DNA from: Isoperla grammatica
Taxonomy: Eukaryota; Arthropoda; Insecta; Plecoptera; Perlodidae
Assembly: GCA_945910005.1 (NCBI GenBank)
Contig: OX246749.1
Span: 17,795,309 to 17,859,308 of the forward strand
Direction: 5' to 3'
DNA length: 64,000 nt
Shown here: positions 12,206 to 64,000 of the stretch, piece by piece
Layout of the letters: every line of letters begins with the position of its first letter
Position numbering within the stretch: the stretch's first letter is position 1
Notes under the pieces: generated by a model
Seen by the model: the letters and a program-made list of their open reading frames with translations, nothing else
Databases searched by the model: none
What the model was told of the DNA's origin: nothing
Made by a program: the position numbers and the translations under genes

Positions 12206-12300
12206 CTGCCCGGGCCCAGACGGGTCTTTTTTTGTCGCCTCTTACAACTGGCTGAGTCACCCGTGGCTTATTTTTTCCCGGGCCCAGACGGGGCATCCAG
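12206..12300 (+). repeat. Tail of the SINE-like repeat
   Basis: CGGGCCCAGACGGG brackets TTTGTCGCCTCTTACAACTG and GGCTTATT...CCCGGGCCC, matching the conserved tail at 2560-2650. It joins the 122-bp array directly. Confidence 0.5.
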
Positions 12301-21100: not shown

Positions 21101-21535
21101 GGACAGCCCCCAGGTGTGGAAGATGTGCTTTGTACAACTAAAACACAAGGAATCAATATACCAAGGACAGTCCCCAGGTGTGGACGATGTGCTTTGTACA
21201 ACTAAAACACAAGGAATCAATATACCAAGGACAGTCCCCAGGTGTGGAAGATGTGCTTTGTACAACTAAAACACAAGGAATCAATATACCAAGGACAGTC
21301 CCCAGGTGTGGAAGATGTGCTTTGTACAACTAAAACACAAGGAATCAATATACCAAGGACAGTCCAGATATGTGGAAGACGTGCTTTGTGCAACTAATAC
21401 ACAATGAATCTGCCTATTCTCAATTGTTCTATTGGTAATGGAATATCCATTGACAATTTACCAAGGACAGTCCGAATGGTGGAAGATGTGCTTTGTACAA
21501 TTAAAGCACAAGGAATCTGCCTTATTCTCAATTGA
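18172..21535 (+). repeat. 64-bp satellite array with 122-bp-type units at both edges
   Basis: Roughly 48 copies of a 64-bp unit (GGAATCAATATACCAAGGAC, then AGGTGTGGAAGATGTGC, TTTGTACAACTAAAACACAA) run from about 18326 to 21375. Diverged units of the 122-bp family bound it on both sides. The 64-bp unit equals the 122-bp unit with an internal segment of about 58 bp removed (between the CTGCC box and AATATACC). Variant units recur at fixed distances: CAGATATG variants at 18741, 19189, 19637 and 19957 (448, 448 and 320 bp apart), and AATACACC variants at 18788, 19236, 19684 and 20004 with the same spacing. This shows higher-order repeats of 7 and 5 units. Confidence 0.9.
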
Positions 21536-34899: not shown

Positions 34900-35217
34900 A
34901 TGCCCCTAACCTCAGCTAAAAAAATGAAGAGATATCGAGAGAGGCTGAAAGAGAAGGGCAAGTATGATGACTATAAGAAGAAACACTTAGAATCCGTCAA
35001 CAATAGCCGGAAGAAGAAAAAGGAAGAATTTGAAAAACTCACAACACGAAAAAAGAAAATTATAGTTGACAATGCTCGTGCAGCCAACCGTGCTCGAGTG
35101 GCCAAGTGCAGAGCCTTTAAAGCACAAGGGATCGGCCTAATTCCGAATAGTTATATTGATACAAGCGTGTTATTAATGAAGTGCACATTGTTAATATACC
35201 AAGGACAGTTCGAATAA
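34900..35217 (+). pseudogene. Basic coiled-coil ORF running into the 122-bp repeat
   Basis: MPLTSAKKMKRYRERLKEKG starts a very lysine-rich, helical segment (YDDYKKKHLESVNNSRKKKK, ANRARVAKCRAFKAQG). Such K/R/E-rich N-termini precede DDE or Helitron-type proteins in many invertebrate elements. At about 35110 the frame crosses into the 122-bp tandem repeat, so the 3' end of the gene is lost or replaced. No function is assigned. Confidence 0.35.
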
Positions 35218-35443
35218 GTGGAAGACGTGCTTTGTCCAATTCAGCACAAGGAATCTACCTAATTCCAAATTATTCTATTGATACAAGCATGTAATTGATG
35301 AAGTGTCCATTGTTAATATACCAAGGGCAGTCCGAATAAGTGGAAGACGTGCTTCATTCAATTAAAGCACATGGCATCTGCCTTACTCTCGGTTGTTGTA
35401 TTGGTACAAGCATGTTATTAATGAAGTGCCCATTGCTAATATA
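35112..35443 (+). repeat. 122-bp tandem repeat family, locus 3, left part
   Basis: About two and two-thirds monomers (TACCAAGGACAG, GTGGAAGACGTGCTT, AAAGCACA, ACAAGCATG.AATTAATGAAG). The array is cut at 35443 by hAT-B and resumes at 38545 with the next base of the monomer. Confidence 0.85.
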
Positions 35444-38536: not shown

Positions 38537-38544
38537 CTAATATA

Positions 38545-38900
38545 CCAAGGACAGACCGAAATAAGTGGAAGACGTGCTTTGTGCAATTAAAGCACAAGGC
38601 ATCTGCCTAACTCCGAATTGTTCTATAGGTACAAGCAGTAATTAATGAAGTGCCCATTGCTAATATACCAAGGACAGTCCCGATAAGTGGAAGACGTGCT
38701 TTATTCAATTAAAGCACAAGGCATCTGCCTAATTCTCAGTTGTTATATTGGAACAAGTAGTAATTAATGAAGTGCCCATTGCTAATATACCAAGGACAAT
38801 CCGAATAAGTGGAAGACGTGCTTTATTCAATTAAAGCACAAGGCATCTGCCTTACTCTCAGTTGTCATACTGGTACAAGCATGTAATTAATGAAGTAATC
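38545..38900 (+). repeat. 122-bp tandem repeat family, locus 3, right part
   Basis: CCAAGGACAG begins at 38545, 38668 and 38790, spacings of 123 and 122 bp. Each unit contains the hairpin GTGCTTT-loop-AAAGCAC. It ends within a unit where the piggyBac-like remnant begins. Confidence 0.85.
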
Positions 38901-43535: not shown

Positions 43536-44002
43536 TGTCGCAGACGACTGGTGTCAAAGACAGTAAGGTAGTGGGTAGCTGGAGAGGGGTGGGGGAGGAA
43601 CGGAGAGCGGTCGGCTGATGGCCATGTGGTCAGGCGAGTTCTCGAGTAGAGTGTCTTGGGGTAAGACACGGGGCTCGTACTCGGCAGCAACAGCGGTTCG
43701 GGGGTTGATCCGCGCGGGCTACCGGCATCGTGTGTTGTACTGAGTGGTGCGTTGGCTAAATCATATACTTAGTGTTAATAGTATTATCCCTTCAGGACTA
43801 TATGTGACAGTGTGAGTAACCCCTTCAGGACTATATGTGACTGTGTGAATAATCCCTTCAGGGCTATATGTGACTGTGTGAAGCATCCCTTCTGGATTAT
43901 ATGTGTAACGTGTAAGTTGAGTTGTCACTAATAAATACATTTACATATGTTGACGGATATAATATTGTTGTGTCTCAACCCAGCTTCCCTACACACGTGT
44001 CA
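43536..44002 (+). repeat. 5' LTR
   Basis: Begins TGTCGCAGACG and ends ACACGTGTCA (TG...CA). It contains four tandem 33-34-bp units of CCCTTCAGGACTATATGTGA type (43789-43915) and an AATAAA signal at 43930. The four-unit block sits just upstream of the polyadenylation signal and may be an enhancer. Confidence 0.95.
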
Positions 44003-44020: not shown

Positions 44021-44084
44021 CGGCTTATGGACACCTCGTAATTGTGAGGGTTGGCTAACACGAGTGCGTGAGTGAACAAGTGAC

Positions 44085-45998
44085 ATGGCAAGTGCTAACG
44101 TGGACATGGAAACTTTCCCGCTTGACATCGTGCAGGCCATCATGCGTCTGCGGGCAGAAGACCAAGACGGCCTGTATCAGTCCTTGCGTTCGGCACTGTC
44201 GGCCGGTCAGCCACCTGTAAGTGGGTCAAGCGCGGGACAGAATGGCGCCCCTACTCCGTTGAATGCTTGCACCCCAACAGCTGCCAGTTTGGCTACGGGG
44301 TCTGTTTTACACCAGGATACATTCCGCGGTCCAGTGGCGGACCCACCCGTGCAAAGCAGTGTTACGGCGTCGGCCGAACCGGTACGTGACTTCCGCGGTA
44401 CAGTGGCGGACCTACCAGTGCAAAGCAGTGTTACGGCGTCGGCCGAATCGGTACGTGACTTCCGCGGTACAGTGGCGGACCTACCCGTGCAAAGCAGTGT
44501 TACAGCGTCGACCGAACCGGTACGTGACTTCCGCGGTACAGTGGCGGACCTACCCGTGCAAAGCAGTGTTACGGCGTCGACCGAACCGGTACGTGACTTC
44601 CGCGGTACAGTGACGGACCTACCCGTGCAAAGTAGTGTTACGGCGTTGGCCGAACCGGTACGTGACTTCCGCGGTACAGTGACGGACCTACCCGTGCAAA
44701 GTAGTGTTACGGCGTTGGCCGAACCGGTACGTGACTTCCGCGGTACAGTGGCGGACCTATCCGTGCAAAGCAGTGTTACGGCGTCAGCCGAACCGGTACG
44801 TGACTTCCGCGGTACAGTGGCGGACCTACCCGTGCAAAGCAGTGGTACGGCGTCGGCTGAACCGGTACGTGACTTCAGCCGTCCAGTGGCGGACCTACCC
44901 GTGCAAAGCAGTGTTGCAGCGTCGGCCGAACCGGTACGTGACTTCCGCCGTCCAGTGGCGGACCTCCCCGTGCAAAGCAGTGTGGCAGCCTCAACCGAGC
45001 CGGTACGTGACTTCCGCCGTCCAGTGGCGGACCTCTCCGCTCCACGCAGCATCCACGCGGCGACAGACATGAGCCGAGACTTACGACCTACAGCAGATGA
45101 GGCCTTGCCGTCACGTGGCGCCCTGGCGGGTTCAGGTATATCAGCCGCGGAATTGAAACATGTAGCGGCCAATATCGCAGCAGCGGGAGGCGGTGGGGCT
45201 TCCCAATCGTTTTGTGCAGGGGCGGCACACCGGCCACTAGTGGCACATTCAACCCCACTATCAGCGCCACGACAGTTCGTGTCACACATGGAGTTGCCTT
45301 CATTTTGGGGCTATGGGGACCAATGTCCGCCCCAGGAATTCATTGGCAAGCTTGAATGTTACGGAAGAGCCCATGGTCTGTCGCAGAATGTAATGGTGAC
45401 TCAAGTTTTGCCAGTGTCACTGATTGGGGATGCTTTCCGGTGGTGGAGTTTTGTGGGGGGATTTCCTACGTGGGAGGCATTTTGTACAGCGTTTCAAGCG
45501 GAGTTTGGAAGTCCGGATTACCGCGCCGGCTTGCAAGCAGAGCTCGAAGCCAGGACACAGCACCCGGAAGAGCCATTATCTGCTTACATACGAACGATCG
45601 CCAGTTATTATGACAGGTTAGGGACCCATATATCTGAGCAAGAGAAGGTGCAACGTGTTTTCCGCCAGATGCACCCCAAATTTTACCCATTTGTGCAGGG
45701 CCGCTCATTCTCTTCCCTCCAGCACATGGCTCAGGCGGCACCAGACATCCAAGCCATAATATGGCGGCAGTCGACTTATAAGCCTCCTCCACAACCTGCC
45801 AGTTGCATAGCAAAAGACCTAGCATTTTTTGGCATGGCCAATACAATGCCATCTCAAGCAAGCCTTCCTCTCCATACGTCAGCTGGTGACACAAAGGTTG
45901 GGCAAGCGAATAACTCTTGTTGGAAGTGTGGGTCTCCCCGTCACTTCAAACGAAATTGCCCTCTTCGGGCGGGAAACGAACCGGCGCAGTTACAGTAA
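44085..45998 (+). CDS. gag: Gypsy Gag polyprotein, 637 aa
   Basis: Starts at ATG 44085, 83 bases after the LTR. Residues 1-80 are a short helical N-terminus. Residues 80 to about 332 are eleven tandem 23-residue units (FRGTVADLPVQSSVTASAEP-VRD; 69-bp DNA units), the last degenerate. Next come an alanine-rich linker and the retrotransposon gag (capsid-like) domain (about 405-580: MELPSFWGYGDQCPPQEFIG, FRWWSFVGGFPTWEAFCTAF, YYDRLGTHISEQEKVQRVFR). It ends in one CCHC knuckle, CWKCGSPRHFKRNC. Gag forms the particle and binds the RNA. The repeat expansion is unusual: the 69-bp units keep frame and all are open. Frameshifting before the stop at 45996 leads into pol. Confidence 0.95.
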   Translation: MASANVDMETFPLDIVQAIMRLRAEDQDGLYQSLRSALSAGQPPVSGSSAGQNGAPTPLNACTPTAASLATGSVLHQDTFRGPVADPPVQSSVTASAEPVRDFRGTVADLPVQSSVTASAESVRDFRGTVADLPVQSSVTASTEPVRDFRGTVADLPVQSSVTASTEPVRDFRGTVTDLPVQSSVTALAEPVRDFRGTVTDLPVQSSVTALAEPVRDFRGTVADLSVQSSVTASAEPVRDFRGTVADLPVQSSGTASAEPVRDFSRPVADLPVQSSVAASAEPVRDFRRPVADLPVQSSVAASTEPVRDFRRPVADLSAPRSIHAATDMSRDLRPTADEALPSRGALAGSGISAAELKHVAANIAAAGGGGASQSFCAGAAHRPLVAHSTPLSAPRQFVSHMELPSFWGYGDQCPPQEFIGKLECYGRAHGLSQNVMVTQVLPVSLIGDAFRWWSFVGGFPTWEAFCTAFQAEFGSPDYRAGLQAELEARTQHPEEPLSAYIRTIASYYDRLGTHISEQEKVQRVFRQMHPKFYPFVQGRSFSSLQHMAQAAPDIQAIIWRQSTYKPPPQPASCIAKDLAFFGMANTMPSQASLPLHTSAGDTKVGQANNSCWKCGSPRHFKRNCPLRAGNEPAQLQ

Positions 45999-48900
45999 TG
46001 CCACCTGCACAGCACTGCGCATATCAAACAGCAAAGGTGGTACCAAACCCAGGCATAAGTCAGGAGGGCACTCGGGAAAACTACTCTGCTCCAGGAGAGC
46101 CTACGATGTCATCATTGCACGGAGTGGGTGAAACCCCAAGTACGGACCTCAATTTTGTGGACGATGAACCTACTCTTTTTATCGACGTCGCGGGACGCAA
46201 GTTCAGAGCATTGTTGGATACAGGTTCTAGTTGTTCTCTGCTAGGCCCGGAGGTGTTTTCGGCATTGCAGAATATGGGTTTCACGGCGGATAGCGGCAGC
46301 TGTGCATTGTTGATGGCGTCAGGCAGCACGAGCTGTCACGCTCGAATGCAGGTGCCAATTCAAAAGGGAGAGGTTATCCACAATCAAACCTTCCTATTCC
46401 TACCAGACCTACGACGGGATATCATACTGGGCCGTGATTTTCTTCGTGCATTCAAGGTCGTTCTCGCACTAGGGAGTGTACAGTGGTCCCTGGGGAGGAG
46501 AGAGGTTAGGCCTGCTACCTCACTTCATACATTGCCACCCCAACAGGATCTTAGCCATGATGTGTCTGTTTCTAATATGGTGACCACGGACATAACTGAT
46601 TGTACGTCCTCTTGCCCACCCACGCATCGGAAACGACTAGCTAGCCTAATCACCACATATCGACCGCTTTTCTCAAAATTTCCGGGAGTCACCAATCTGG
46701 TCTCCCACACAATCAAGACTACCTCGGGACCACCAGTTAAATGTCGGTTGCGTCCGGTGAACCACACAAAGCGAGCGGTAATGGATGTGCTACTTGATGA
46801 GTTGATAGATCAGAAGCTAATCCGCCCCTCTGAAAGCTCTTGGGCTAGTGCGCCGGTTTTGGTGCCCAAAAAATCGGGGGGCTACAGATTGGCCGTTGAC
46901 TACCGACGTTTAAACAGCATCACTGAGGTGGCAAAGTGGCCGATGCCGCGGACTGACTGGGTCTTGGCGCAACTGGGATCTGCCCGGTGGTTTTCAACCA
47001 TTGATTTATCACAGGGTTTCTTCCAGATCACCATGGCACCGCAGGATGCGCACAAGACAGCATTCGTATGCCACCGCGGCACATATGAATTCATCAGAAT
47101 GCCATTCGGGCTTGCCGGCGGTCCGGCGACCTTTCAACGGCTCATGGACACAGTGTTAAAGGGTATATCGCACCGTTTCTGCATGGCTTTCATGGATGAT
47201 ATTATCATATTTTCAGCAACCTTGGAAGAACATCTCGCACATTTAGAGGAGATTTTTCGCAGGCTCCGAGACGCAGGTCTAACAATTAATCCAGACAAGC
47301 TGCAGCTATTCAGGACGTCCCTCGACTTTCTAGGACACATTATCCACCGTGGGGGGGTTAGCCCCAACCCACAGAAGGTGGATGCCATTCAACACTTTCC
47401 TGCACCGTCATCAATTAAGGAGTTGCAAGCTTTCCTAGGACTGGTAGGATTTTATAGGGCATTTATCCCGCAGTTTTCGTCTGTTGCAAAAAATCTTACC
47501 ATTCTGTTACAAAAAAACACTCCTTGGATGTGGTCCCATCTGCAAATTGAAGCTTTCCAAAACTTGAAGAAATCCCTAATTAATGTCACAACTCTGGCTT
47601 TGCCAGATTTAAACAAGCCCTTTGTCATCGAAACCGATGCGAGTGGAGTGGGACTGGGCGCCGTATTACTGCAAGAGCACATCCATCCTACCACTGGTGT
47701 CGCTCAGCTGTTACCGGTATCATTCATCAGCAGAACATTGAATAAACACGAACAGCGGTATACGGTTCAGGAATGGGAATGCCTGGCGGTAGTATGGGCC
47801 GTCGAAAAATTTAGGCCGTATGTCGACATGTCCCATTTCGACATCGTTTGTGACCATGCATCTCTCTCTTGGATGTTTAGCACGGACCTCGCATCCAGCC
47901 GTGTTCACAGATGGGTCCTCCGCCTTCAGGGCTTAGATTGCACAATAAAATACAGGAGAGGTACGTCAAACATACCTGCAGACGCCCTCAGTCGATCGCC
48001 CGTTATGGATCGATCAAACTCAATGACACCGCCACGTTTGCCGGAAGTCCTCTTTCCACTAGAGGTGGAGGAAGCCAAGGGTAGGGTCAAGTTTGAACTG
48101 CCGGTGCATCAGGTACAAGTTGTAGACTTAGATGTTTCTCCATTGGCGGATTTACTACGGATGGGTGACGAGCAGCGTTCAGATGACGAGCTTCGCGCCG
48201 TCAGAGCAGCAATCACGGGCGAACCACCGCCTTCTGGGGAACCTTTCTCGAGGCGTGTCCTCGATATGGCGGCCGAGAGCGAAATCGATATCAACGGGGT
48301 CATATGGCGAGTCAGGGCGTCTGCTGCTCCAACTGTATGGTTACCCACATCGCTACGAGCGCTGGTACTCCAGGCGGTTCACGCGCATCCCTTGAGCAGC
48401 CATTTCGGTTTTTATAAAACGTTGCGTCGAGTACAGGAGAAGTACTCGTGGATCGGTATGCGGCAGGACGTTTTGCTTTTTGTACGTTCCTGTCAAACAT
48501 GCCAACGGGTGAAGCAGCGAAACAAAAAACCCTATGGATTGATGCACAGTACCCCCTCATTAAAACCATTTTCCGAAATAAGCATAGACCTAATAGGGCC
48601 GCTACCACGATCATCCCAGGGATTTTCCTACATTCTGGTGGTGGTTGACAAGTTCACCCGGTACCCGGAGATTTTCCCCATTAGGACACCTACCTCAAAA
48701 GTGATTCTCGAGAAGGTCATGGAACTTTTCTGCAGGCATGGCTTTCCTGAAGCCGTGTCTAGTGACAATGGAAAGCAGTTTGTCTCCAAGATATGGAAGT
48801 CCGTAATGGCCAAGCTTTGTATCTCTGACAGACACACTGTGCCTTATCGCCCTTGTGGGCAACAAGTCGAGCGCCACAATGGCATACTCAAAACTGCCAT

Positions 48901-49441
48901 TCGATGTTATTGTGAGAACCACAAACGTTGGGACGACCACCTCCATTCCCTGGCATTTGCCTTACGAACCGCTGAGAGTGAGGTCACAGGATACTCTCCA
49001 GCGTATCTCACATACGGCCGAGAGCTTCGAACGCCATGGGACCATGATACACCATCAGGGGCACCACCCACTCCAGTCGATATCCATGATTATGCAACCG
49101 ATCTGCAATCCAAGCTTATAGAGGCCATGCGCTGGGCTAAGTCCCACATCGCGGCTACACAGGTATCGCGTAAAGCAAGCTATGATGCAGCTCGCCGTCA
49201 CCACGGGTTTGACGTGGGTGATTTGGTGCTGAAGGACTTACACACCTTAAGCAGTGCCACGCAAGGAATCGCATCAGGGCTAGCGGCACGACGTTCGGGT
49301 CCATTCCGCATTGTTAAGCGTCTGGCACCAAATTCATTCGAGCTGGTGGAGGTAGCTACGAAGAAAAAGGCAGGCCGTGCCAACGCCGACCAGCTGCACC
49401 CATGGCTAGCTACGCCACAATGGGCGCAAATGGGTTCATAG
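45917..49441 (+). CDS. pol: Gypsy Pol polyprotein (protease, RT, RNase H, integrase)
   Basis: The open frame is 45917-49441; translation is expected to enter at 45977 by -1 frameshifting. Using residue numbers from 45917: protease DTGSS at 101-105; reverse transcriptase with YRLAVDYRRLN, PFGLAGGPATFQRLMD and the active site FMDD (425-428); RNase H from ETDASG (572) with DHASLSWMF; integrase zinc finger H..H..C..C (HPLSSHFGFYKTLRR, SCQTCQR, about 820-862); integrase core D891, D950, E985; and a GPF-type C-terminal module (RRSGPFRIVKRLAPNSFELV). No stops or shifts. One oddity is that D950 and E985 are separated by 34 residues instead of the usual 35, and the common YHPQ.N.Q.E reads YRPCGQQVE. 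No chromodomain was seen. Confidence 0.95.
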   Translation: MLEVWVSPSLQTKLPSSGGKRTGAVTVMPPAQHCAYQTAKVVPNPGISQEGTRENYSAPGEPTMSSLHGVGETPSTDLNFVDDEPTLFIDVAGRKFRALLDTGSSCSLLGPEVFSALQNMGFTADSGSCALLMASGSTSCHARMQVPIQKGEVIHNQTFLFLPDLRRDIILGRDFLRAFKVVLALGSVQWSLGRREVRPATSLHTLPPQQDLSHDVSVSNMVTTDITDCTSSCPPTHRKRLASLITTYRPLFSKFPGVTNLVSHTIKTTSGPPVKCRLRPVNHTKRAVMDVLLDELIDQKLIRPSESSWASAPVLVPKKSGGYRLAVDYRRLNSITEVAKWPMPRTDWVLAQLGSARWFSTIDLSQGFFQITMAPQDAHKTAFVCHRGTYEFIRMPFGLAGGPATFQRLMDTVLKGISHRFCMAFMDDIIIFSATLEEHLAHLEEIFRRLRDAGLTINPDKLQLFRTSLDFLGHIIHRGGVSPNPQKVDAIQHFPAPSSIKELQAFLGLVGFYRAFIPQFSSVAKNLTILLQKNTPWMWSHLQIEAFQNLKKSLINVTTLALPDLNKPFVIETDASGVGLGAVLLQEHIHPTTGVAQLLPVSFISRTLNKHEQRYTVQEWECLAVVWAVEKFRPYVDMSHFDIVCDHASLSWMFSTDLASSRVHRWVLRLQGLDCTIKYRRGTSNIPADALSRSPVMDRSNSMTPPRLPEVLFPLEVEEAKGRVKFELPVHQVQVVDLDVSPLADLLRMGDEQRSDDELRAVRAAITGEPPPSGEPFSRRVLDMAAESEIDINGVIWRVRASAAPTVWLPTSLRALVLQAVHAHPLSSHFGFYKTLRRVQEKYSWIGMRQDVLLFVRSCQTCQRVKQRNKKPYGLMHSTPSLKPFSEISIDLIGPLPRSSQGFSYILVVVDKFTRYPEIFPIRTPTSKVILEKVMELFCRHGFPEAVSSDNGKQFVSKIWKSVMAKLCISDRHTVPYRPCGQQVERHNGILKTAIRCYCENHKRWDDHLHSLAFALRTAESEVTGYSPAYLTYGRELRTPWDHDTPSGAPPTPVDIHDYATDLQSKLIEAMRWAKSHIAATQVSRKASYDAARRHHGFDVGDLVLKDLHTLSSATQGIASGLAARRSGPFRIVKRLAPNSFELVEVATKKKAGRANADQLHPWLATPQWAQMGS
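45971..46042 (+). promoter_or_regulatory. -1 ribosomal frameshift signal with predicted pseudoknot
   Basis: Slippery heptamer G GGA AAC at 45971-45977, exactly in the gag phase and 18 bases before the gag stop codon. After a 6-base spacer comes stem 1, GCGCAGT (45984-45990) with ACTGCGC (46014-46020), seven perfect pairs. Its loop pairs downstream: TGCCACCT (45999-46006) with AGGTGGTA (46035-46042), eight pairs including one G-U. The -1 frame from this point gives the pol product directly. Confidence 0.85.
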
Positions 49442-49461: not shown

Positions 49462-49928
49462 TGTCGCAGACGACTGGTGTCAAAGACAGTAAGGTAGTGG
49501 GTAGCTGGAGAGGGGTGGGGGAGGAACGGAGAGCGGTCGGCTGATGGCCATGTGGTCAGGCGAGTTCTCGAGTAGAGTGTCTTGGGGTAAGACACGGGGC
49601 TCGTACTCGGCAGCAACAGCGGTTCGGGGGTTGATCCGCGCGGGCTACCGGCATCGTGTGTTGTACTGAGTGGTGCGTTGGCTAAATCATATACTTAGTG
49701 TTAATAGTATTATCCCTTCAGGACTATATGTGACAGTGTGAGTAACCCCTTCAGGACTATATGTGACTGTGTGAATAATCCCTTCAGGACTATATGTGAC
49801 TGTGTGAAGCATCCCTTCTGGATTATATGTGTAACGTGTAAGTTGAGTTGTCACTAATAAATACATTTACATATGTTGACGGATATAATATTGTTGTGTC
49901 TCAACCCAGCTTCCCTACACACGTGTCA
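49462..49928 (+). repeat. 3' LTR
   Basis: 467 bp and identical to the 5' LTR apart from one A/G difference at 49789. AATAAA at 49856. Confidence 0.95.
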
Positions 49929-52624
49929 GTAGATAACAACGCATTTTTTTTTATTTTTTTTCGGATGAACGGTTTAGAAGTTACGGGCCTTGAAAGTTCA
50001 GTCCGTGTCGTGAAAATGGCAAATTTAAGGGTTTGCGTTTAATAGTGCCATTCCTTAAGGTGTGAAGCTTTTGGTTTGATTTTTCCTTTCTAGGACCATA
50101 ATTGAATAGTTCTACTAGAATATGTTTTCAGAAATTTGATACTTAACATGCAAGTAGTCCAAACTGAAGGTCAAAGTCATCATATTAATTTGTCGTTATT
50201 GCACAATTTGGGGTGTAATAACTCTGAGGGGGTTGAAGATAACCATCCAATTCTTTTTGCATAATATACTCTTTAGCCTTGTGTAATAGGAAAAAAATAA
50301 AAATTTTTGTTTTTCTGTACCCTTCATACCCAAAAATATTCCCAAAATGTAGCAAAAGTCAAATTTTGACATTTTCAAGGTCAAGTTATAGAAAAGGGGT
50401 AACTTCAAAAAAATTGAAAATTTGGTGTTTTGTTAAACTATCTGCAAAGAACAAAACTGCTTAATATTTATGTGTTACTCAATCTGGTTTAGGAGTTACA
50501 GCCCCTCTAAAAAGGCAGTAATTCGCCCACTTTACCAGTAGGCGTACAATGTGATTCTCAAATATAAATCACTATTTAGGCCAATATTTTACCAAATAAC
50601 CTTTAAAAATAAATAAACATGTCTTTACCATGTCCCGAAAATCCAGTTTACGGGGGTGGAAAAAGGGGGTGATTTTTTGTGAGGACACCAATATCTAAAA
50701 AACCGAAGATGTTACAGATGTGAAAGTTGGTATTTAGATTATCCTTCAAAAATAAAGGAATAGTACATGTTTTATCACTTTCCTAAAACCCTGTTAAGAA
50801 GGATGAAAAAGGGTGGTGCAGTGTAGGGGGTGAATTTTTTTGATGTGAAAATTGGTACACAGATTCTTCTGCATAAACAAACACGTATTTTACCATATTT
50901 CAAAAATCTAGTAAATGGTGGTCAAAAAGGGGGTAGTTTTTTAAAATGAGGATACCTGTACCGGTATCTAACAAACTGACACTGTGAAAGTCGTAAAAAA
51001 TTGATATTTAGATTAACCTTAAAAAACAAAGTAGTACACGTGTGATACCATTTTCTGAAAATCCCGTTAATGGGGGTGAAAAGTGGGGGTGGATTTTTTT
51101 TTTAAGATTCCTATACCTCCAAAATCGTTAACGGTAACCGTAAATGCTACAGGCTTGAAAATTTGTACAAATATTTCTTGAAACATAAAGAAACAAGTAT
51201 TTGAATATTTTTTGCAAATCAAGTTAAGGGGGTGAAAACACGGGGTGATTTTTTAAAACTAAAAAACGGAACATGTTAGTCGTGAAATTTGGTATTACTA
51301 TTTACATACTCATTTAAAAATATGTAAACAATTGATTTACAATTTTTTGAAAATCCAGTTAGGGGGGCGGGGGTTACAAGAGGGGGTGAATTATTTTTTG
51401 AACATAAGTATATTTCTAAAACGGATGATGTTGCAGATGTGAAAATTGGTATTTAGATTCTTCTTTAAGATTAAATAAACACATGTTTTACAATTTTTCT
51501 GAAATCAATTTAAGACAAGTGAAAACGGGGTTAAAAAGGAGGGAGTGAATATTTTATTTCAAAAACTGAAAATGTTTTAGACGAGAAACTCAGCATTTAG
51601 TTTAGATTAGATAATTAAAGATGGTTGGATAATTCAGTTTAGAATTAAAAGACACTAGTTTTACCATTTCCTGAAATCCAGTTGAGAAGGAAAGAAAACG
51701 TGGGGATGAATTTTAGTATGAGCACCACCCCTTTTCATCCTTCTTAACAGAATGTTAGGAAAATGGTAAAACATGTACTATTCCAATATTTTTTAAGAAC
51801 AATCTAACCACAAATTTTCATGTCTGTAACATCTTCGGTTTTTGAGATATTGGTGTCCTCACAAAAAATCACCCACTTTTTCCACCCCCGTAAACTGGAT
51901 TTTCGGGACATGGTAAAGACATGTTTATTTATTTTTAAAGGTTATTTGGTAAAATATTGACCTAAATAGTGTTTTATATTTGAGAATCACACTGTATGCC
52001 TACTGGTAAAGTGGGCGAATTACTGCCTTTTTAGAGGGGCTGTAACTCCTAAACCAGATTGAGTAACACATAAATATTTGGCAGTTTTGTTCTTTGCTGA
52101 TAGTTAAACAAAACACCAAATTTTCAATTTTTTTGAAGTTACCCCTTTTCTATAACATGCCCTTGAAAATGTCAAAATTTGACTTTCGCTACATTTTGGG
52201 AATATTTTTGGGTATGAAGGGTACAGAAAAACAAAATTTTTTATTTTTTTCCTATTACACAAGGCTAAATAGTATATTATACAAAAAGAATTGGATGGTT
52301 ATCTTCAACCCCCTCAGAGGTATTACACCCCAAAATCTGCAAAAACGACAAATTAATATGATGACTTTGACCTTCAGTTTGGACTACTTGCATGTTAAGT
52401 ATCAAATTTCTGAAAACATATTCTAGTAGAACTATTCAATTATGGTCCTAGAAAGGAAAAATCAAACTAAAAGCTTCACTCCTTTAGAAATGGCACTATT
52501 AAACGCAAACCCTTAAATTTGCCATTTTCACGACGCGGACTGAACTTTCAAGGCCCGTAACTTCTAAACCGTTCATCCGAAAAAAATAAAAAAAATTGTG
52601 TTACTATCTGCAAGTAAGTAGTTA

Positions 52625-54981: not shown

Positions 54982-55213
54982 CGTCGGTGGGAGCGTCCCG
55001 CAGGTCAATGTCGAACACTCTGTACTTGCGGCGCTTGGACGCGGGCGGGCTGTCGTTCTCCTTCTCAGCGGGCGGAGGGGGGGGCGGGGGCAGGTTCCCC
55101 TCCTCGCCCCCCTCCACCTCGGGCGCGATGGGCAGGAACTGGAGGCCCTCGCTGTCGCCCTCCTCGTCCGACGAGCAGAACGCGGCCACCGGCTCTATGG
55201 TCGACACGTCCAC
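54982..55213 (-). CDS. RBBP5: RBBP5 exon C (WDR5-binding motif end and acidic region)
   Basis: The exon is bounded by acceptor TTGCCGCAG (55216-55214) and donor GTGAGT (54981). It encodes VDVSTIEPVAAFCSSDEEGD, LQFLPIAPEVEGGEEGN, a proline run, KRRKYRVFDIDLRDAPTD. It matches the RBBP5 segment 'EEVDVTSVDPIAAFCSSDEE...YLPIAPEVE'. In the known protein, the EEVDVT segment docks to WDR5, and here that motif straddles the junction with exon B (..DDLE | VDVST). The exon starts in phase 0 and ends one base into a codon. The next (3') exon was not found in the window; the nested transposons to the left may lie in its intron. Confidence 0.9.
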
Positions 55214-56634
55214 CTGCGGCAAGTAGTAGCTTTTATTAGTAGTACATTTCATTACATAGCTGGAACAATATTGACCCATCCAATCAGAGAGGTCTACGTG
55301 ATAAGGGTATTTGGAAATTTGGCTCCCATGTCAGTAAGACAAGTTGTTAGTACAATGTAGCTTACGACGAAGAATAGAACAATATAATAAATATAACATG
55401 ATAGTATATCATTCCCAGGTCAGTTAGACTTGATGATAGTCAACGTCTACGATATCGGGTGTATTCGCGTAATGATGCGCACGGCGGCCATACTGGAGGC
55501 CACAATGGCGTCACGTGATTGGTAGTTCATTGTTATAGTTCTTCCAGTATGAGAAGACGGGTTGTTGCCGACATCGGCCTGAGCGGTAGGTTGTAAACTT
55601 AAAAGCCACCCTAACTGACCACTTGCGACCGCTTCCTGCGTTGCCAAGATGTGAATTTGGCGAAGAATGCGTATCTCTCTCTATCTGACTCTCTCCGTAA
55701 TATCTCTGTAGCCCTAAATAGGAAGCAATAATATCTTGTGAATAATACTTGAATGCTTGAATAATGCGTTGTGAATGAAAATAATTTACGATGTTACCAG
55801 TGAAAAGAACCCTTCGAACTTGCACTGACAACCTTGCAGCCAATTATTGTGCCCAGGCAGCTATTAGGCGGTAGGCGGTATTGGGAGTACAATAAGATTA
55901 TCTGCATTGAAAATGTGAACAAACAAGGTCCATTGTCCCTTTGAGGGAAACGAAACACGTCAAATGTTACTGGATACACTATACAATAGCTTTGTTTCTT
56001 TGTCCTACACTCTCTGCACGTATGCAAGGAGTGTAGCACTCTCGCGTTTCTTTGTCCCAATGCAGCTACACCGCTAGTCGTTTCTTTGTCCGGTGTAGCT
56101 GCATCGATGCAGGATATGCAGCTCAGCACCAGCTCCCGAGCAGATGGAGCATTGAAATGCAAGGAAGTTACTGCCAAGTTTAAATATTGTCACATAATTA
56201 CGATGCAAGAAGCTTTCACTGTTGATTTGTTATTATAAAAAAGACATTAAATGTGATTTAGAATGGTTCTCAACAATATACACTAAGCCTACTACATGTT
56301 TTTGTTTTTTAAAACACGTATGAATCTGAAAGTGTTGCACTGCTTGCAAAAATGTGTTTCTTTGTATCTACAGCAGTGTAGCTCGCACAGCCTGCATTGT
56401 CGCGTAGTTCCTGTCCAGACCGCCAACCTACACCACGATTATATGCAGGACAAAGAAACAAACCTAATGTTTCAGCTGGCATTTAGTTGGAGTTCTACTG
56501 TTCTCCAACTTTGGTTTACTATCATCACTGAAAAGCAACTTAAATAAATTCTCTCATATTTCCGCCACTCTTTTTATTACATTTACGACAGCAAACGTAA
56601 TCATTTCCTTAAACTTTACCAGGGGATATAGGTA
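55214..56634 (-). other. RBBP5 intron between exons B and C
   Basis: About 1.4 kb running from the GTATGTG/GTACCTA donors to TTGCCGCAG. It contains a diverged repeat of the words TTTCTTTGTCC...TGCAGCTACA (55985-56120) and no recognisable mobile element or ORF. Confidence 0.6.
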
Positions 56635-56635
56635 C

Positions 56636-56812
56636 CTCAAGGTTGTCCTCCTGCTTCTCGGACCTGGCTTCTATATTTAGGCCCGTACCGACCTCTACGT
56701 CACATACCTCAAGGTCGTCCTCCTGCTTCTCGGACCTGGCTTCTATATTTAGGCCCGTGCCCACCTCTACGTCACATACCTCAAGGTCGTCCTCCTGCTT
56801 CTCGGGCCCGAG
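56636..56812 (-). repeat. 72-bp tandem repeat spanning the exon B splice donor (3 donors)
   Basis: The unit is 24 nt of exon end (GAGAAGCAGGAGGACGACCT-TGAG) plus 48 nt starting GTATGTGACGTAGAGGT. Donors are at 56779, 56707 and 56635. 72 is divisible by three and the intronic part has no stop in the RBBP5 frame. Use of the second or third donor would add 24 or 48 residues (VCDVEVGTGLNIEARSEKQE-DDLE each), keeping frame with exon C. Confidence 0.9.
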
Positions 56813-57016
56813 CTGGACAGACTTGTCGTCGTCCGAGAGGTCGAACTCGGACTCTCTCTCCTCGTACTCGACGTTCTCGTCGAGCTCCTTGAAGTCGGGG
56901 GCGAACGCCGACCAGTTCTCCACCTGGTTCTGAGCCCAGACGGAGACGACGCCGCTCGATATCGACGCTATGATCGGCCTCACGGGATGCCACACCACGT
57001 CCAGGAGAAGCTCGCC
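56780..57016 (-). CDS. RBBP5: RBBP5 exon B (last WD blade and Ash2L-binding segment)
   Basis: 237 bp, 79 codons, phase 0 at both ends. It reads GELLLDVVWHPVRPIIASIS, SGVVSVWAQNQVENWSAFAP, DFKELDENVEYEERESEFDL, then SDDDKSVQLGPEKQEDDLE. The WD40 end is followed by the activation segment and Ash2L-binding motif (FAPDFKELDENVEYEERESEFD), nearly identical to vertebrate RBBP5. The chosen acceptor is the copy at 57018-57017 nearest the exon body; seven more copies lie upstream. The chosen donor is GAG|GTATGTG at 56779; two more lie 72 and 144 bp downstream, both in frame. RBBP5 with WDR5, ASH2L and DPY30 stimulates H3K4 methylation by MLL/SET1 enzymes in the nucleus. Confidence 0.92.
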
Positions 57017-57648
57017 CTACGTTGGTGCACACACAAAGAAATAGATATCGACGCTATGATCGGCCTCACGGGATGCCACACCACGTCCAGGAGAAGCTCG
57101 CCCTACGTTGGTGCACACACAAAGAAATAGATATCGACGCTATGATCGGCCTCACGGGATGCCACACCACGTCCAGGAGAAGCTCGCCCTACGTTGGTGC
57201 ACACACAAAGAAATAGATATCGACGCTATGATCGGCCTCACGGGATGCCACACCACGTCCAGGAGAAGCTCGCCCTACGTTGGTGCACACACAAAGAAAT
57301 AGATATCGACGCTATGATCGGCCTCACGGGATGCCACACCACGTCCAGGAGAAGCTCGCCCTACGTCGGTGCACACACAAAGAAATAGATATCGACGCTA
57401 TGATCGGCCTCACGGGATGCCACACCACGTCCAGGAGAAGCTCGCCCTACGTTGGTGCACACACAAAGAAATAGATATCGACGCTATGATCGGCCTCACG
57501 GGATGCCACACCACGTCCAGGAGAAGCTCGCCCTACGTTGGTGCACACACAAAGAAATAGATATCGACGCTATGATCGGCCTCACGGAATGCCACACCAC
57601 GTCCAGGAGAAGCTCGCCCTACGTTGGTGCACACACAAAGAAATAAAT
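57003..57648 (-). repeat. 86-bp tandem array of the exon B splice acceptor (8 acceptors)
   Basis: Each unit (minus strand) is TATTTCTTTGTGTGTGCACC-AACGTAG, the intron end, followed by 59 nt of exon B (GGCGAGCTTCTCCTGG... to GTCGATATC). Acceptor AGs fall at 57017, 57103, 57189, 57275, 57361, 57447, 57533 and 57619. Copies are nearly identical. 86 is not a multiple of three: splicing to any upstream copy reads into a TGA in the next unit, so only the copy next to the exon body gives RBBP5. Confidence 0.95.
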
Positions 57649-57679
57649 CGGGGTGCTTGATTTTTTTAAATAATATTTA

Positions 57680-58200
57680 TTTAAAAGTGACAAAGTGAGG
57701 AAGGATGTGGAAATGCGAGGAGGGGACTGGAATGTAGTTGAGGGGGAAGAGTGGTGGCAGGATAGAAGAAGATGGAGAGGCTTATCTTCAATGCCGACCC
57801 AACGCAGAGTTGGACGTGGCAACAGATGATGATGATGATGAATGATGATGATGATGATGATGAATATTTATTAAGAAAAGGAGCACAAAGATAAGGAAGG
57901 AACTTGGGAGAGTCTAAACTTTAAGCTGGGGAAAGAAAGATTGCGGTGGTTTGGCCACATGTGAAGAATGCAGGAAGACAGGATCCTGAAAACTGAGTTT
58001 AAGATAGAAGCAGGGAAAAGGAAAAGAAAGAGGGGAAAACTAAGACTGAGGTGGGAAGAAGTGATAGAAATGGATGTAGAAAGAGGCAATGCAACTTGGG
58101 AAGAGGTCAATCAGGAACGATCATGGGAAGATAGAAAATTATGGACAGAATTTGTACGAGCGGAGGAAGAAGAAAGTTAAGAGGAGGAGCCAGAGGAAGT
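57680..58200 (+). mobile_element. Two LINE C-terminal fragments in the RBBP5 intron
   Basis: 57680-57870: DKVRKDVEMRGGDWNVVEGE, WWQDRRRWRGLSSMPTQRR, then a (GAT)n-rich tail (57825-57868). 57940-58190: RLRWFGHM, a stop, then RMQEDRILKTEFKIEAGKRK and LRLRWEEVIEMDVERGNATW. Both are the last coding part of non-LTR retrotransposons ('RW.GH..RM...R......RGR...RW...', 'DRRRWRGL'). They lie antisense to RBBP5 and are copied in the mirror arm at 61094-61614. 58201-58442 shows no feature. Confidence 0.7.
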
Positions 58201-58444
58201 TAACATGAGGGAAGCGTCAGGCATGGCCAGCCGGCTTCGATGTACCTAGGGGCCGAAATATGATCCGATTATTTTCCTATCCCCTAACCGACTTCACTGT
58301 TGGACACAGGGAGCAGATATAAAAAATGTAAATTAATTTATTTTGGATTTGTGTGAACTTTTTCGAATTCTCGACTTTCACTGGCTACACAATAACGATT
58401 TAACGTTGGCGACCAAAGTTACGCGATTGCCGTGCTGGGCCTAC

Positions 58445-58694
58445 CTTGGTGCCGTGCAGGATCTTGACCAGGTTGCCGACGCTCTTCTCCCACACGTACA
58501 GGGCGTGCTGACGTGCCGACCCGGCGCAGATGTACTCGCCGTCGCCGGAGAAGCAGCACTTCTTCCACATCGTTTTGTTGACGAGGTCCTGCAGCTTCTG
58601 CAGCGGCTCGGGCTCTCCGTCGGCCCCACACGTCAGCACCTCGGCGCTGTCGTAGACGCGGATCACTCGGTCTGCCGTGTTGACCAGGAGACAG
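58445..58694 (-). CDS. RBBP5: RBBP5 exon A (WD40 blade)
   Basis: 250 bp. The acceptor is GTGTCCCCCAG (58696-58695) and the donor AAG|GTAGGCC (58444). It reads (S)CLLVNTADRVIRVYDSAEV, LTCGADGEPEPLQKLQDLVN, KTMWKKCCFSGDGEYICAGS, ARQHALYVWEKSVGNLVKIL, HGTK and joins exon B in phase (HGTK|GELLLD). It is very close to vertebrate RBBP5 at about residues 205-288. The first base completes a serine codon from the missing upstream exon. Exons for roughly the first 200 residues must lie beyond 64000. The acceptor is the last of a long array of acceptor copies. Confidence 0.95.
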
Positions 58695-60573
58695 CTGGGG
58701 GACACACATGGGACACATGAGACACACGTCAGCGCTGTCTAGACGCGCATCACTCGGTCTGCCGTGTTGACCAGGAGACAGCTGGGGGACACACATGAGA
58801 CACATGAGACACACGTCAGCGCTGTCTAGACGCGCATCACTCGGTCTGCCATGTTGACCAGGAGACAGCTGGGGGACACACATGAGACACATGGGACACA
58901 CGTCAGCGCTGTCTAGACGCGGATCACTCGGTCTGCCGTGTTGACCAGGAGACAGCTGGGGGACACACATGGGACACATGTGACACACGTCAGCGCTGTC
59001 TAGACGCCCATCACTCGGTCTGCCGTGTTGACCAGGAGACAGCTGGGGGACACACATGGGACACATGAGACACACGTCAGCGCTGTCTAGACGCGCATCA
59101 CTCGGTCTGCCGTGTTGACCAGGAGACAGCTGGGGGACACACATGGGACACATGAGACACACGTCAGCGCTGTCTAGACGCGGATCACTCGGTCTGCCGT
59201 GTTGACCAGGAGACAGCTGGGGGACACACATGGGACACATGAGACACACGTCAGCGCTGTCTAGACGCGCATCACTCGGTCTGCCGTGTTGACCAGGAGA
59301 CAGCTGGGGGACACACATGGGACACATGAGACACACGTCAGCGCTGTCTAGACGCGCATCACTCGGTCTGCCGTGTTGACCAGGAGACAGCTGGGGGACA
59401 CACATGGGACACATGAGACACACGTCAGCGCTGTCTAGACGCGCATCACTCGGTCTGCCGTGTTGACCAGGAGACAGCTGGGGGACACACATGGGACACA
59501 TGAGACACACGTCAGCGCTGTAGAGACGCGCATCACTCGGTCTGCCGTGTTGACCAGGAGACAGCTGGGGGACACACATGGGACACATGAGACACACGTC
59601 AGCGCTGTCTAGACGCGCATCACTCGGTCTGCCGTGTTGACCAGGAGACAGCTGGGGGACACACATGAGACTCATGAGACACACGTCAGCGCTGTCTAGA
59701 CGCGCATCACTCGGTCTGCCGTGTTGACCAGGAGACAGCTGGGGGACACACATGGGACACACATCAGCGCTGTCTAGACGTGCATCACTCGGTCTGCCGT
59801 GTTGACCAGGAGACAGCTGGGGGACACACATGGGACACACATCAGCGCTGTCTAGACGCGCATCACTCGGTCTGCCGTGTTGACCAGGAGACAGCTGGGG
59901 GACACACATGGGACACACATCAGCGCTGTCTAGACGCGCATCACTCGGTCTGCCGTGTTGACCAGGAGACAGCTGGGGGACACACATGGGACACATGAGA
60001 CACACGTCAGCGCTGTCTAGACGCGCATCACTCGGTCTGCCGTGTTGACCAGGAGACAGCTGGGGGACACATGAGACACACGTCAGCCCTGTCTAGACGC
60101 GCATCACTCGGTCTGCCGTGTTGACCAGGAGACAGCTGGGGGACACACATGGGACACACATCAGCGCTGTCTAGACGCGCATCACTCGGTCTGCCGTGTT
60201 GACCAGGAGACAGCTGGGGGACACACATGGGACACATGAGACACACGTCAGCGCTGTGTAGACGCGCATCACTCGGTCTGCCGTGTTGACCAGGAGACAG
60301 CTTGGACACACATGGGACACATTAGACACACGTCAGCGCTGTGTAGACGCGCATCACTCGGTCTGCCGTGTTGACCAGGAGACAGCTTGGACACACATGG
60401 GACACATTAGACACACGTCAGCCCTGTCTAGACGCGCATCACTCGGTCTGCCGTGTTGACCAGGAGACAGCTGGGGGACACACATGGGACACACATCAGC
60501 GCTGTCTAGACGCGCATCACTCGGTCTGCCGTGTTGACCAGGAGACAGCTGGGGGACACACATGGGACACACA
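58695..60573 (-). repeat. 87-bp tandem array of the exon A splice acceptor, about 21 copies
   Basis: The minus-strand unit is 28 nt of intron end (TCTCATGTGTCCCATGTG-TGTCCCCCAG) plus 59 nt derived from the start of exon A (CTGTCTCCTGGTCAACACGG, CAGACCGAGTGATGCGCGTC, TAGACAGCGCTGACGTGTG). Compared with the true exon, the unit has a net 9-bp deletion (CGTCTACGACAGCGCCGAGGTGC to CGTCTAGACAGCGC), creating TAG in the RBBP5 frame after 13 codons. Most units are 87 bp; a few lack 9 bp. The period of 29 codons leaves other frames open, hence an artefactual 528-codon frame. Confidence 0.95.
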
Positions 60574-60599
60574 TCATGTGTCCCATGTGTGTCCCCCAG

Positions 60600-60849
60600 C
60601 TGTCTCCTGGTCAACACGGCAGACCGAGTGATCCGCGTCTACGACAGCGCCGAGGTGCTGACGTGTGGGGCCGACGGAGAGCCCGAGCCGCTGCAGAAGC
60701 TGCAGGACCTCGTCAACAAAACGATGTGGAAGAAGTGCTGCTTCTCCGGCGACGGCGAGTACATCTGCGCCGGGTCGGCACGTCAGCACGCCCTGTACGT
60801 GTGGGAGAAGAGCGTCGGCAACCTGGTCAAGATCCTGCACGGCACCAAG
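60600..60849 (+). pseudogene. Inverted copy of RBBP5 exon A
   Basis: Same sequence as 58445-58694, on the plus strand, with acceptor and GTAGGCC donor intact. It is antisense to the gene, so it cannot contribute to RBBP5 mRNA. It could pair with the sense exon in the transcript to form a hairpin about 1.7 kb long. Confidence 0.85.
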
Positions 60850-61646
60850 GTAGGCCCAGCACGGCAATCGCGTAACTTTGGTCGCCAACGTTAAATCGTT
60901 ATTGTGTAGCCAGTGAAAGTCGAGAATTCGAAAAAGTTCACACAAATCCAAAATAAATTAATTTACATTTTTTATATCTGCTCCCTGTGTCCAACAGTGA
61001 AGTCGGTTAGGGGATAGGAAAATAATCGGATCATATTTCGGCCCCTAGGTACATCGAAGCCGGCTGGCCATGCCTGACGCTTCCCTCATGTTAACTTCCT
61101 CTGGCTCCTCCTCTTAACTTTCTTCTTCCTCCGCTCGTACAAATTCTGTCCATAATTTTCTATCTTCCCATGATCGTTCCTGATTGACCTCTTCCCAAGT
61201 TGCATTGCCTCTTTCTACATCCATTTCTATCACTTCTTCCCACCTCAGTCTTAGTTTTCCCCTCTTTCTTTTCCTTTTCCCTGCTTCTATCTTAAACTCA
61301 GTTTTCAGGATCCTGTCTTCCTGCATTCTTCACATGTGGCCAAACCACCGCAATCTTTCTTTCCCCAGCTTAAAGTTTAGACTCTCCCAAGTTCCTTCCT
61401 TATCTTTGTGCTCCTTTTCTTAATAAATATTCATCATCATCATCATCATCATTCATCATCATCATCATCTGTTGCCACGTCCAACTCTGCGTTGGGTCGG
61501 CATTGAAGATAAGCCTCTCCATCTTCTTCTATCCTGCCACCACTCTTCCCCCTCAACTACATTCCAGTCCCCTCCTCGCATTTCCACATCCTTCCTCACT
61601 TTGTCACTTTTAAATAAATATTATTTAAAAAAATCAAGCACCCCGA

Positions 61647-62277
61647 TTTATTTCTTTGTGTGTGCACCAACGTAGGGCGAGCTTCTCCTGGACGTGGTGT
61701 GGCATTCCGTGAGGCCGATCATAGCGTCGATATCTATTTCTTTGTGTGTGCACCAACGTAGGGCGAGCTTCTCCTGGACGTGGTGTGGCATCCCGTGAGG
61801 CCGATCATAGCGTCGATATCTATTTCTTTGTGTGTGCACCAACGTAGGGCGAGCTTCTCCTGGACGTGGTGTGGCATCCCGTGAGGCCGATCATAGCGTC
61901 GATATCTATTTCTTTGTGTGTGCACCGACGTAGGGCGAGCTTCTCCTGGACGTGGTGTGGCATCCCGTGAGGCCGATCATAGCGTCGATATCTATTTCTT
62001 TGTGTGTGCACCAACGTAGGGCGAGCTTCTCCTGGACGTGGTGTGGCATCCCGTGAGGCCGATCATAGCGTCGATATCTATTTCTTTGTGTGTGCACCAA
62101 CGTAGGGCGAGCTTCTCCTGGACGTGGTGTGGCATCCCGTGAGGCCGATCATAGCGTCGATATCTATTTCTTTGTGTGTGCACCAACGTAGGGCGAGCTT
62201 CTCCTGGACGTGGTGTGGCATCCCGTGAGGCCGATCATAGCGTCGATATCTATTTCTTTGTGTGTGCACCAACGTAG
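61647..62277 (+). repeat. 86-bp array, mirror copy
   Basis: Inverted equivalent of 57017-57647, including the same single-base variants (a CCGACG variant in the unit at about 61925 mirrors CGTCGG at about 57366, and GCATTCCGTG at 61702 mirrors CACGGAATGC at 57583). Shared private variants show that the copy is recent or artificial. Confidence 0.9.
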
Positions 62278-64000
62278 TTGCCGTGTTGACCAGGAGACAG
62301 CTGGGGGACACACATGGGACACATGAGACACACGTCAGCGCTGTCTAGACGCGCATCACTCGGTCTGCCGTGTTGACCAGGAGACAGCTGGGGGACACAC
62401 ATGGGACACATGAGACACACGTCAGCGCTGTCTAGACGCGCATCACTCGGTCTGCCGTGTTGACCAGGAGACAGCTGGGGGACACACATGGGACACATGA
62501 GACACACGTCAGCACTGTCTAGACGCGCATCACTGGGTCTGCCGTGTTGACCAGGAGACAGCTGGGGGACACACATGGGACACATGAGACACACGTCAGC
62601 GCTGTCTAGACGCGCATCACTCGATCTGCCGTGTTGACCAGGAGACAGCTGGGGGACACACATGGGACACATGAGACACACGTCAGCGCTGTCTAGACGC
62701 GCATCACTCGGTCTGCCGTGTTGACCAGGAGACAGCTGGGGGACACACATGGGACACATGAGAAACACGTCAGCGCTGTCTAGATGCGCATCACTCGGTC
62801 TGCCGTGTTGACCAGGAGACAGCTGGGGGACACACATGGGACACATGAGACACACGTCAGCGCTGTCTAGACGCGCATCACTCGGTCTGCCGTGTTGACC
62901 AGGAGACAGCTGGGGGACACACATGAGACACATGAGACACACGTCAGCGCTGTCTAGACGCGCATCACTCGGTCTGCCGTGTTGACCAGGAGACAGCTGG
63001 GGGACACACATGGAACACATGAGACACACGTCAGCGCTGTCTAGACGCGCATCACTCTGTGTGCCGTGTTGACCAGGAGACAGCTGGGGGACACACATGG
63101 AACACATGAGACACACGTCAGCGCTGTCTAGACGCGCATCACTCGGTCTGCCGTGTTGACCAGGAGACAGCTGGGGGACACACATGGGACACATGAGACA
63201 CACGTCAGCGCTGTCTAGACGCGCATCACTCTGTGTGCCGTGTTGACCAGGAGACAGCTGGGGGACACACATGGAACACATGAGACACACGTCAGCGCTG
63301 TCTAGACGCGCATCACTCGGTCTGCCGTGTTGACCAGGAGACAGCTGGGGGACACACATGGGACACATGAGACACACGTCAGCGCTGTCTAGACGCGCAT
63401 CACTCGGTCTGCCGTGTTGACCAGGAGACAGCTGGGGGACACACATGGGACACATGAGACACACGTCAGCGCTGTCTAGACGCCCATCACTAGGTCTGCT
63501 GTGTTGACCAGGAGACAGCTGGGGGAGACACATGGGACACATGAGACACACGTCAGCGCTGTCTAGACGCGCATCACTCGGTCTGCCGTGTTGACCAGGA
63601 GACAGCTGGGGGACACACATGAGACACACGTCAGCGCTGTCTAGACGCGCAACACTTGGTCTGCCGTGTTGACCAGGAGACAGCTGGGGGACACACATGG
63701 GACACATGAGACACACGTCAGCGCTGTCTAGACGCGCATCACTCGGTCTGCCGTGTTGACCAGGAGACAGCTGGGGGACACACATGGGACACATGAGACA
63801 CACGTCAGCGCTGTCTAGACGCGCATCACTCGGTCTGCCGTGTACCAGGAGACAGCTGGGGGACACACATGGGACACACGTCAGCGCTGTCTAGACGCGC
63901 ATCACTCGGTCTGCCGTGTTGACCTGGAGACAGCTGGGGGACACACATGGGACACATGACACACGTCAGCGCTGTCTAGATGCGCATCACTCGGTCTGCC
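62278..64000 (-). repeat. 87-bp acceptor array, continuation, about 20 copies
   Basis: Same unit and orientation as 58695-60573, running to the window end. Variants include CTGTGTGCCG for CGGTCTGCCG (63057 and 63231) and GGAACACATG, repeated at spacings that suggest block duplication of about two units. The full array therefore extends beyond this window. Confidence 0.95.

Follow-up and report, generated by a model that had tools for sequence, protein, structure and literature searches.

We analyzed a window of 64,000 nt (C17:17795309-17859308) located on C17, a contig of 40.6 Mb in the genome assembly (874 Mb, 603 contigs) of the stonefly Isoperla grammatica. The minus strand of the window contains the 3′ half of a gene for the conserved chromatin factor RBBP5, several splice boundaries of which are embedded in tandem arrays. 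Insect RBBP5 proteins headed the list of protein matches, the first being that of Gryllus longicercus (E 1e-118), and RBBP5 chains were the best matches among solved structures (E 6e-108). Exon A (native copy, 250 bp, 58445-58694) was identified by its splice ends, its open frame and a match to human RBBP5, and exon B (237 bp, 56780-57016), which ends at the native donor, by its splice ends and an alignment of homologues. Splice ends and an open frame also defined exon C (54982-55213), which has an array at neither end, and the last exon D (11520-11608), which reaches up to the stop codon; all four lie on the minus strand. Joined at their ag/gt ends, exons A to D form a single open frame terminated by the stop at 11520-11522. 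Exon D is 43 kb away from exon C, beyond the stretch that had been covered by a first-pass annotation of this DNA. Further exons are designated W, X and Y, X being an upstream exon that corresponds to approximately residues 74-149 of P0002, the query protein of our searches. As far as they were read, exons W to D of the window copy are open.

In the first-pass annotation, the acceptor of exon A and both the acceptor and the donor of exon B had been described as tandemly amplified. The three arrays do exist at this place and are far beyond chance, with Tandem Repeats Finder (TRF) scores of 3,273 and 3,143 for the 87-bp arrays, 1,362 and 1,244 for the 86-bp arrays and 325 for the 72-bp array. 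Their units comprise exonic as well as intronic sequence, and all three are oriented like the gene. The 87-bp array over the exon A acceptor consists of two parts, one at 58637-60571 with 22 decoy acceptors (58781-60548) and one at 62279-64000 with 20 decoys (62300-63933), which runs past the window end. Together they hold 43 acceptor copies, 42 of them decoys (about 41 copies had been noted previously), and 31 of the 43 acceptors on the gene strand of the window have kept the native 23-nt site. The array continues for approximately 1.9 kb outside the window, which brings the number of exon A acceptors in this gene copy to 61. Over the acceptor of exon B, an 86-bp array at 56958-57645 provides eight acceptors on the gene strand, seven of which are decoys; here, the native 23-nt site was kept in seven of the eight. 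In each case the native acceptor is the copy adjoining the exon body.

The 72-bp array over the exon B donor (56633-56805) contains three donors, every one of them in frame. One of three motif matches to the donor turned out to be false, and the third donor (gtacct) was taken from a direct reading of the donors. By alignment of 12 homologues, the first copy is the native donor of exon B. Since each unit encodes 24 residues and is open, we considered an ordinary coding repeat, but none of the 12 aligned homologues has such an insert. A fourth array that spans a junction lies outside the window at the acceptor of exon X and is composed of 75-bp units (25.7 copies, 26 by motif). Every one of these units (L009:7678-9601) has a donor-like CTG/GTGAGC about 25 bases past the acceptor, which might in principle allow a single unit to be spliced in as a minute exon. 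A 55-bp array of 3.7 copies (11614-11818, minus strand), which ends 5 bp before the acceptor of exon D, is purely intronic.

The notion of one RBBP5 gene had to be abandoned, as ten copies were found on C17. A search of the genome with the DNA of exon A yielded 11 matches of full length, which all lie on C17 and correspond to ten gene copies and to an inverted piece within the window. In the protein search with P0002, in which 86 of 290 candidates were scored so that all copy numbers are lower bounds, exons W, X and Y were each found at least nine times, exons B and C each at least ten times and exon A at least ten times in addition to the inverted piece. Among these matches RBBP5 exons occurred on C17 only, those on other contigs showing 26-36% identity. 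The copies are spread over approximately 10.7 Mb (7.19 to 17.87 Mb) on both strands. Exon D gave ten matches on C17, eight of which, by position and strand, follow a gene copy at a distance of 41-58 kb. The other two, at 26.81 Mb (plus strand) and 14.18 Mb (minus strand), are 99% matches without a gene copy where one would be expected. According to the match lists, the full set of exons from W to D is present in seven copies. Exon D is missing from its place in the copies at 17.46 and 12.21 Mb, and exons W, X and Y are absent from the fetched DNA of the copy at 15.29 Mb.

For a comparison of the arrays we used fetched stretches of all ten copies rather than entire copies and counted acceptor motifs, allowing up to three differences per motif and including the native site. 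For exons X, A and B, in this order, we obtained 26, 61 and 8 acceptors in the window copy, 15, 68 and 7 in the copy at 13.85 Mb, 10, 31 and 6 at 17.46 Mb, 7, 21 and 6 at 15.52 Mb, 26, 14 and 36 at 14.35 Mb, 16, 15 and 3 at 12.51 Mb, 11, 56 and 10 at 12.11 Mb, 11, 9 and 12 at 12.21 Mb, and 30, 18 and 63 at 7.20 Mb. The copy at 15.29 Mb, which has no exon X, gave 0, 16 and 15. Thus, the arrays of exons A and B are present in all ten copies and that of exon X in all nine copies having this exon, while their size ranges from 3 to 68 acceptors (A, 9-68; B, 3-63; X, 7-30). Even the closest pair as judged by the X-Y intron, the copies at 15.52 and 12.51 Mb (0.67% distance), differs at all three arrays. 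The commonest unit is shared by all ten copies in the case of A and B and by eight in that of X, and many of the distinct units occur in a single copy each (38 of 45 for X, 111 of 128 for A and 20 of 24 for B). The shared and private units indicate by their sequences that the acceptor arrays predate the gene amplification and that their lengths have since diverged from one copy to the next. The exon B donor motif occurred once in each of the nine other copies after removal of two loose false matches in the 17.46-Mb copy, and among the fetched stretches the 72-bp array was seen in the window copy only. For the 14.35-Mb copy the single donor rests on the motif count, the introns of the other copies having been viewed directly.

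The exon-proximal native acceptor is intact in nine copies for X and in ten copies each for A and B. Use of a decoy with retention of the sequence up to the exon end would introduce a stop in the window for all 42 decoys of exon A and all seven of exon B. Over all copies, an in-frame stop is brought in by 592 of 594 decoys recognized by a substitution-only match (X, 141 of 142; A, 295 of 296; B, 156 of 156). Exons W, X, Y, A and B are of constant length, have intact splice ends and are without a stop in every fetched copy having them (7, 9, 9, 10 and 10 copies, respectively). Out of 18 variable coding sites, 12 are synonymous and six nonsynonymous (two of them in one codon of the window copy), whereas a synonymous share of 0.26 would be expected (binomial P 3e-4, shared descent ignored). 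The mean exon distance amounts to 0.52% (36 pairs) compared with median intron distances of 6.4% between X and Y, 9.8% downstream of Y and 2.7% downstream of B. The 700 bp that follow exon A, with a median of 43%, were dropped from this comparison because the copies carry different insertions there; the maxima of the other introns (23-36%) are likewise inflated by differing insertions and were not used. From the sequences, we read this coding pattern as that of several working copies plus some decay.

Some insight into the origin of the arrays came from the exon B donor. In six of nine copies checked, GGCCCGAG flanks the donor on both sides at a spacing of 62 bp, and the window copy shows it (once as GGTCCGAG) at intervals of 72 bp, at the ends of the units. 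The two spacings differ by ten bases, which matches a piece of sequence behind the donor that the window and 7.20-Mb copies have and those at 13.85 and 17.46 Mb lack. An origin of the donor array by duplication between short direct repeats would agree with this, and a likely parent state is still visible in the other copies. Replication slippage, which had been suggested earlier, or unequal exchange is a fair origin in view of the short direct repeat at which the donor unit starts. For the acceptor arrays the first step is not visible because every copy already has units.

We interpret the junction arrays as minisatellites of the type termed "mirages" in amphioxus, i.e., as duplications of splice junctions that grew and that leave the transcript with the intron through exon-proximal splicing, and assign a probability of roughly 0.72 to this interpretation. 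Short tandem duplications would by chance have spanned a splice junction and then have grown and shrunk as ordinary minisatellites. When an acceptor is duplicated, one intact copy would stay on the exon body and the extra copies would fall on the intron side; a donor would give the mirror image. If splicing picks the copy nearest the exon body, which yields the shortest exon in terms of exon definition, the extra units would be removed with the intron and would be nearly neutral. Such arrays could persist at junctions, where the additional copies end up in the intron, while arrays inside exons would be purged. Exon-proximal splicing in the RBBP5 copies is predicted on the basis of the conserved coding sequence and of precedents in amphioxus and human CBS, and we infer that the arrays are neutral, with slippage or unequal exchange as the motor. 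Most likely, they have no function. The donor array and a 1.7-kb inverted duplication in the window would have arisen later than the acceptor arrays and the amplification.

Several points weigh against this interpretation. As identical acceptors stand in a row, an upstream acceptor could be expected to compete. The spacing in the six copies is 62 bp and not 72 bp, which means that none of them shows the exact precursor of the donor unit. The conservation of the coding sequence could partly be accounted for by gene conversion, and the binomial test, besides disregarding common ancestry, counted the two changes in one codon separately. Exon C, which was read in six copies, is kept less well: a deletion of 28 bp shifts the frame in the 12.51-Mb copy, 39 bp are absent in the 17.46-Mb copy, and the 7.20-Mb copy shows 54 gap columns.

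The state of exon C, whose frame is shifted by a deletion in one copy and which has large gaps in two others, also suits the assumption that most copies, perhaps including that of the window, are pseudogenes whose arrays reflect that splicing no longer matters. The lack of exons W, X and Y at 15.29 Mb and of a last exon in place at 17.46 and 12.21 Mb points in the same direction. However, in all fetched copies having them, exons W, X, Y, A and B show an open frame and undamaged splice ends, and the differences are mostly synonymous. Moreover, an array-free copy was not found genome-wide among the matches listed (86 of 290 candidates scored), and the presence of arrays must therefore be compatible with function in at least one copy. 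The first-pass annotation had itself named an intact RBBP5 elsewhere, with the present locus being a pseudogene, as the finding that would speak against it. Other copies do exist, but these bear the same arrays at their acceptors, and in the window copy exons W to D, as read, are open. On balance, we regard widespread pseudogenization as unlikely to explain the arrays.

How remarkable the position of the arrays is depends on how common arrays are in general. TRF arrays cover 16% of the window between positions 1 and 54500. Three or more of the seven splice boundaries fell inside arrays in 16,539 of 63,999 circular shifts, and four boundaries came within 6 bp of arrays in 8,756 of 63,999. With the 16% background, the binomial probability was 0.087 for at least three and 0.015 for at least four of the seven boundaries; in this calculation the D boundary was misplaced by 4 bp and taken as lying within 5 bp. 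A count of boundaries is thus weak evidence by itself, because background arrays are common and shifts often reach three, and the earlier argument that three boundaries by themselves exclude chance is not supported. In a sampling with few samples of unequal size taken at round positions, arrays were found in three of ten samples from C17 (3,511 of 18,000 bp) versus one of 13 from five other contigs (99 of 33,000 bp), which suggests that C17 is array-rich. Two of the C17 samples far from RBBP5 (L038 and L044) contain large arrays of 117 bp x 13 and 82 bp x 12. It is possible that C17 is special among the chromosomes or particularly rich in arrays.

The frequency of arrays in the window away from genes bears on another explanation, according to which the decoys divert part of the transcripts into products containing stops, so that each copy yields less, and the ten copies were retained because they restored the dose of RBBP5. 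The stops brought in by nearly all decoys (592 of 594), the native 23-nt acceptor kept in most exon A decoys of the window, and the fact that RBBP5 was met solely as a ten-copy family (86 of 290 candidates scored) would agree with it. With arrays being so common, however, no link to the amplification is needed, and multi-unit mirages of amphioxus are described as not disturbing splicing. We therefore give this explanation little credence. The same low estimate holds for its extension, as drawn from the sequences, to a self-reinforcing cycle in which junction minisatellites and gene copies promote each other, the decoys cutting the output per copy.

An inverted duplication, which is absent from the first-pass annotation, interrupts the exon A array. 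Its left arm (57017-58720, minus strand) and its right arm inside the 87-bp array (60574-62277, plus strand) are identical as reverse complements over 1,704 bp. The right arm includes an antisense exon A (60600-60849) and seven antisense exon B acceptor units, an 86-bp array at 61649-62277 thus being part of the duplicate. The inserted piece interrupts one 87-bp unit. On its left side the unit reaches CACACA, followed by TCA common to unit and arm; on its right side there is one extra T, after which the unit restarts at TGCCGTG. Depending on the assignment of the shared bases, the unit lacks 28 to 31 bp at the insertion. Exit from and re-entry into one unit would fit a templated insertion during break repair or template switching. 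Among the fetched stretches of the ten copies, only that of the window has the antisense exon A. The perfection of the arms, together with the difficulty of assembling long arrays, might raise the suspicion of an assembly artefact, be it collapsed or invented repeats, fold-back reads or the repeated scaffolding of one locus. Yet a fold-back read would give one junction and not two in one unit, the ten copies have introns that diverge at the percent level and contain different insertions, and the arrays carry private variants, which makes an artefact very improbable. Least probable is that the window pre-mRNA folds into a 1.7-kb hairpin giving rise to small RNAs against exons A and B, a prediction from the arms, which are perfect, 1.85 kb apart and within one transcription unit. 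Hairpin-RNA loci of Drosophila reportedly produce gene-silencing siRNAs, but the antisense exon A was found in only one of ten copies and the coding exons of the window copy are open.

The window contains further repeats and mobile elements. Arrays of 109, 64, 122 and 122 bp at 11906-12210, 18304-21410, 35117-35443 and 38537-38896 share ATATACCAAGGACAGTCC and AAAGCACAAGG or close forms, and by their sequences they belong to a dispersed family with internal tandem repeats. Two long open reading frames (ORFs) at 44076-49441 are gag- and pol-like, the first of them with an in-frame 69-bp repeat; we take them to be a gypsy-type element. On either side, at 43786-43905 and 49712-49831, the same 33-bp array is found. 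A 583-aa ORF at 15210-16961 resembles BED zinc-finger transposases, its best match being 74% identical and that of Bacillus rossius 48%, and presumably is of the hAT type. An imperfect inverted repeat at 50074-52467 shows exact stretches of 124, 84 and 81 bp.

The first-pass annotation knew of no precedent at this scale in this gene, but the class as such has been described. In amphioxus, "mirages" have been reported for Adh3, troponin C and the globins BflGb6 and BflGb9, and similar repeats for PGBD5; regular splicing was undisturbed as judged by reverse transcription PCR, and the unit number differed between haplotypes (PMC3087553, PMC3902484). Human CBS has a 31-bp variable number tandem repeat (VNTR), c.1444_1467+7(16_21), at a donor, with 24 exonic and 7 intronic bases by its notation, and a 68-bp duplication of the intron 7/exon 8 junction that is spliced at the distal site (PMC2630376). 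Intron gain by tandem genomic duplication, in which the duplication brings the splice signals, is likewise on record (PMC3087553). The RBBP5 arrays agree with the amphioxus mirages in consisting of minisatellite-like repeats that span acceptors (X, A and B) or a donor (B), with an intact authentic copy beside the exon body and a variable number of units. They differ in belonging to an insect, in affecting several junctions of one gene and in occurring in ten amplified gene copies, between which the unit number varies. There are up to 68 acceptors compared with the 6 and 3 reported for BflGb6. CBS resembles RBBP5 in combining, within one gene, a donor VNTR and a duplicated intron/exon junction; its acceptor junction exists in two copies versus up to 68. 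Tandem duplication is common to intron gain and to RBBP5, in which an existing intron was lengthened and the boundaries need no new intron. A duplicated AG/GT proto-splice site, as in intron gain, was not seen, the acceptors reading ag/CT (A and X) and ag/GG (B). A minisatellite of the human gene 6-16 (G1P3/IFI6) is reportedly the subject of a 1995 paper as a source of multiple splice donor sites; like the RBBP5 arrays it supplies repeated splice sites, but these are donors.

No report on junction arrays in RBBP5 was met in a literature search that was not aimed at this gene, touched little on insects and reached few subscription journals, and within the same search arrays called "mirages" were met in lancelets only. 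Thus, the class is already known, and some ten insect copies with two or three long, freely varying junction arrays are an unusual variant of it. The choice of an acceptor among many identical sites is an old question, which has usually been tested with constructs of few copies. With ten natural versions of a conserved gene, whose three junctions carry between 3 and 68 acceptors, the number of decoys could be related to the accuracy of splicing within one animal. The findings also suggest that mirages are apparently no speciality of lancelets and that they occur here in a gene that is itself amplified.

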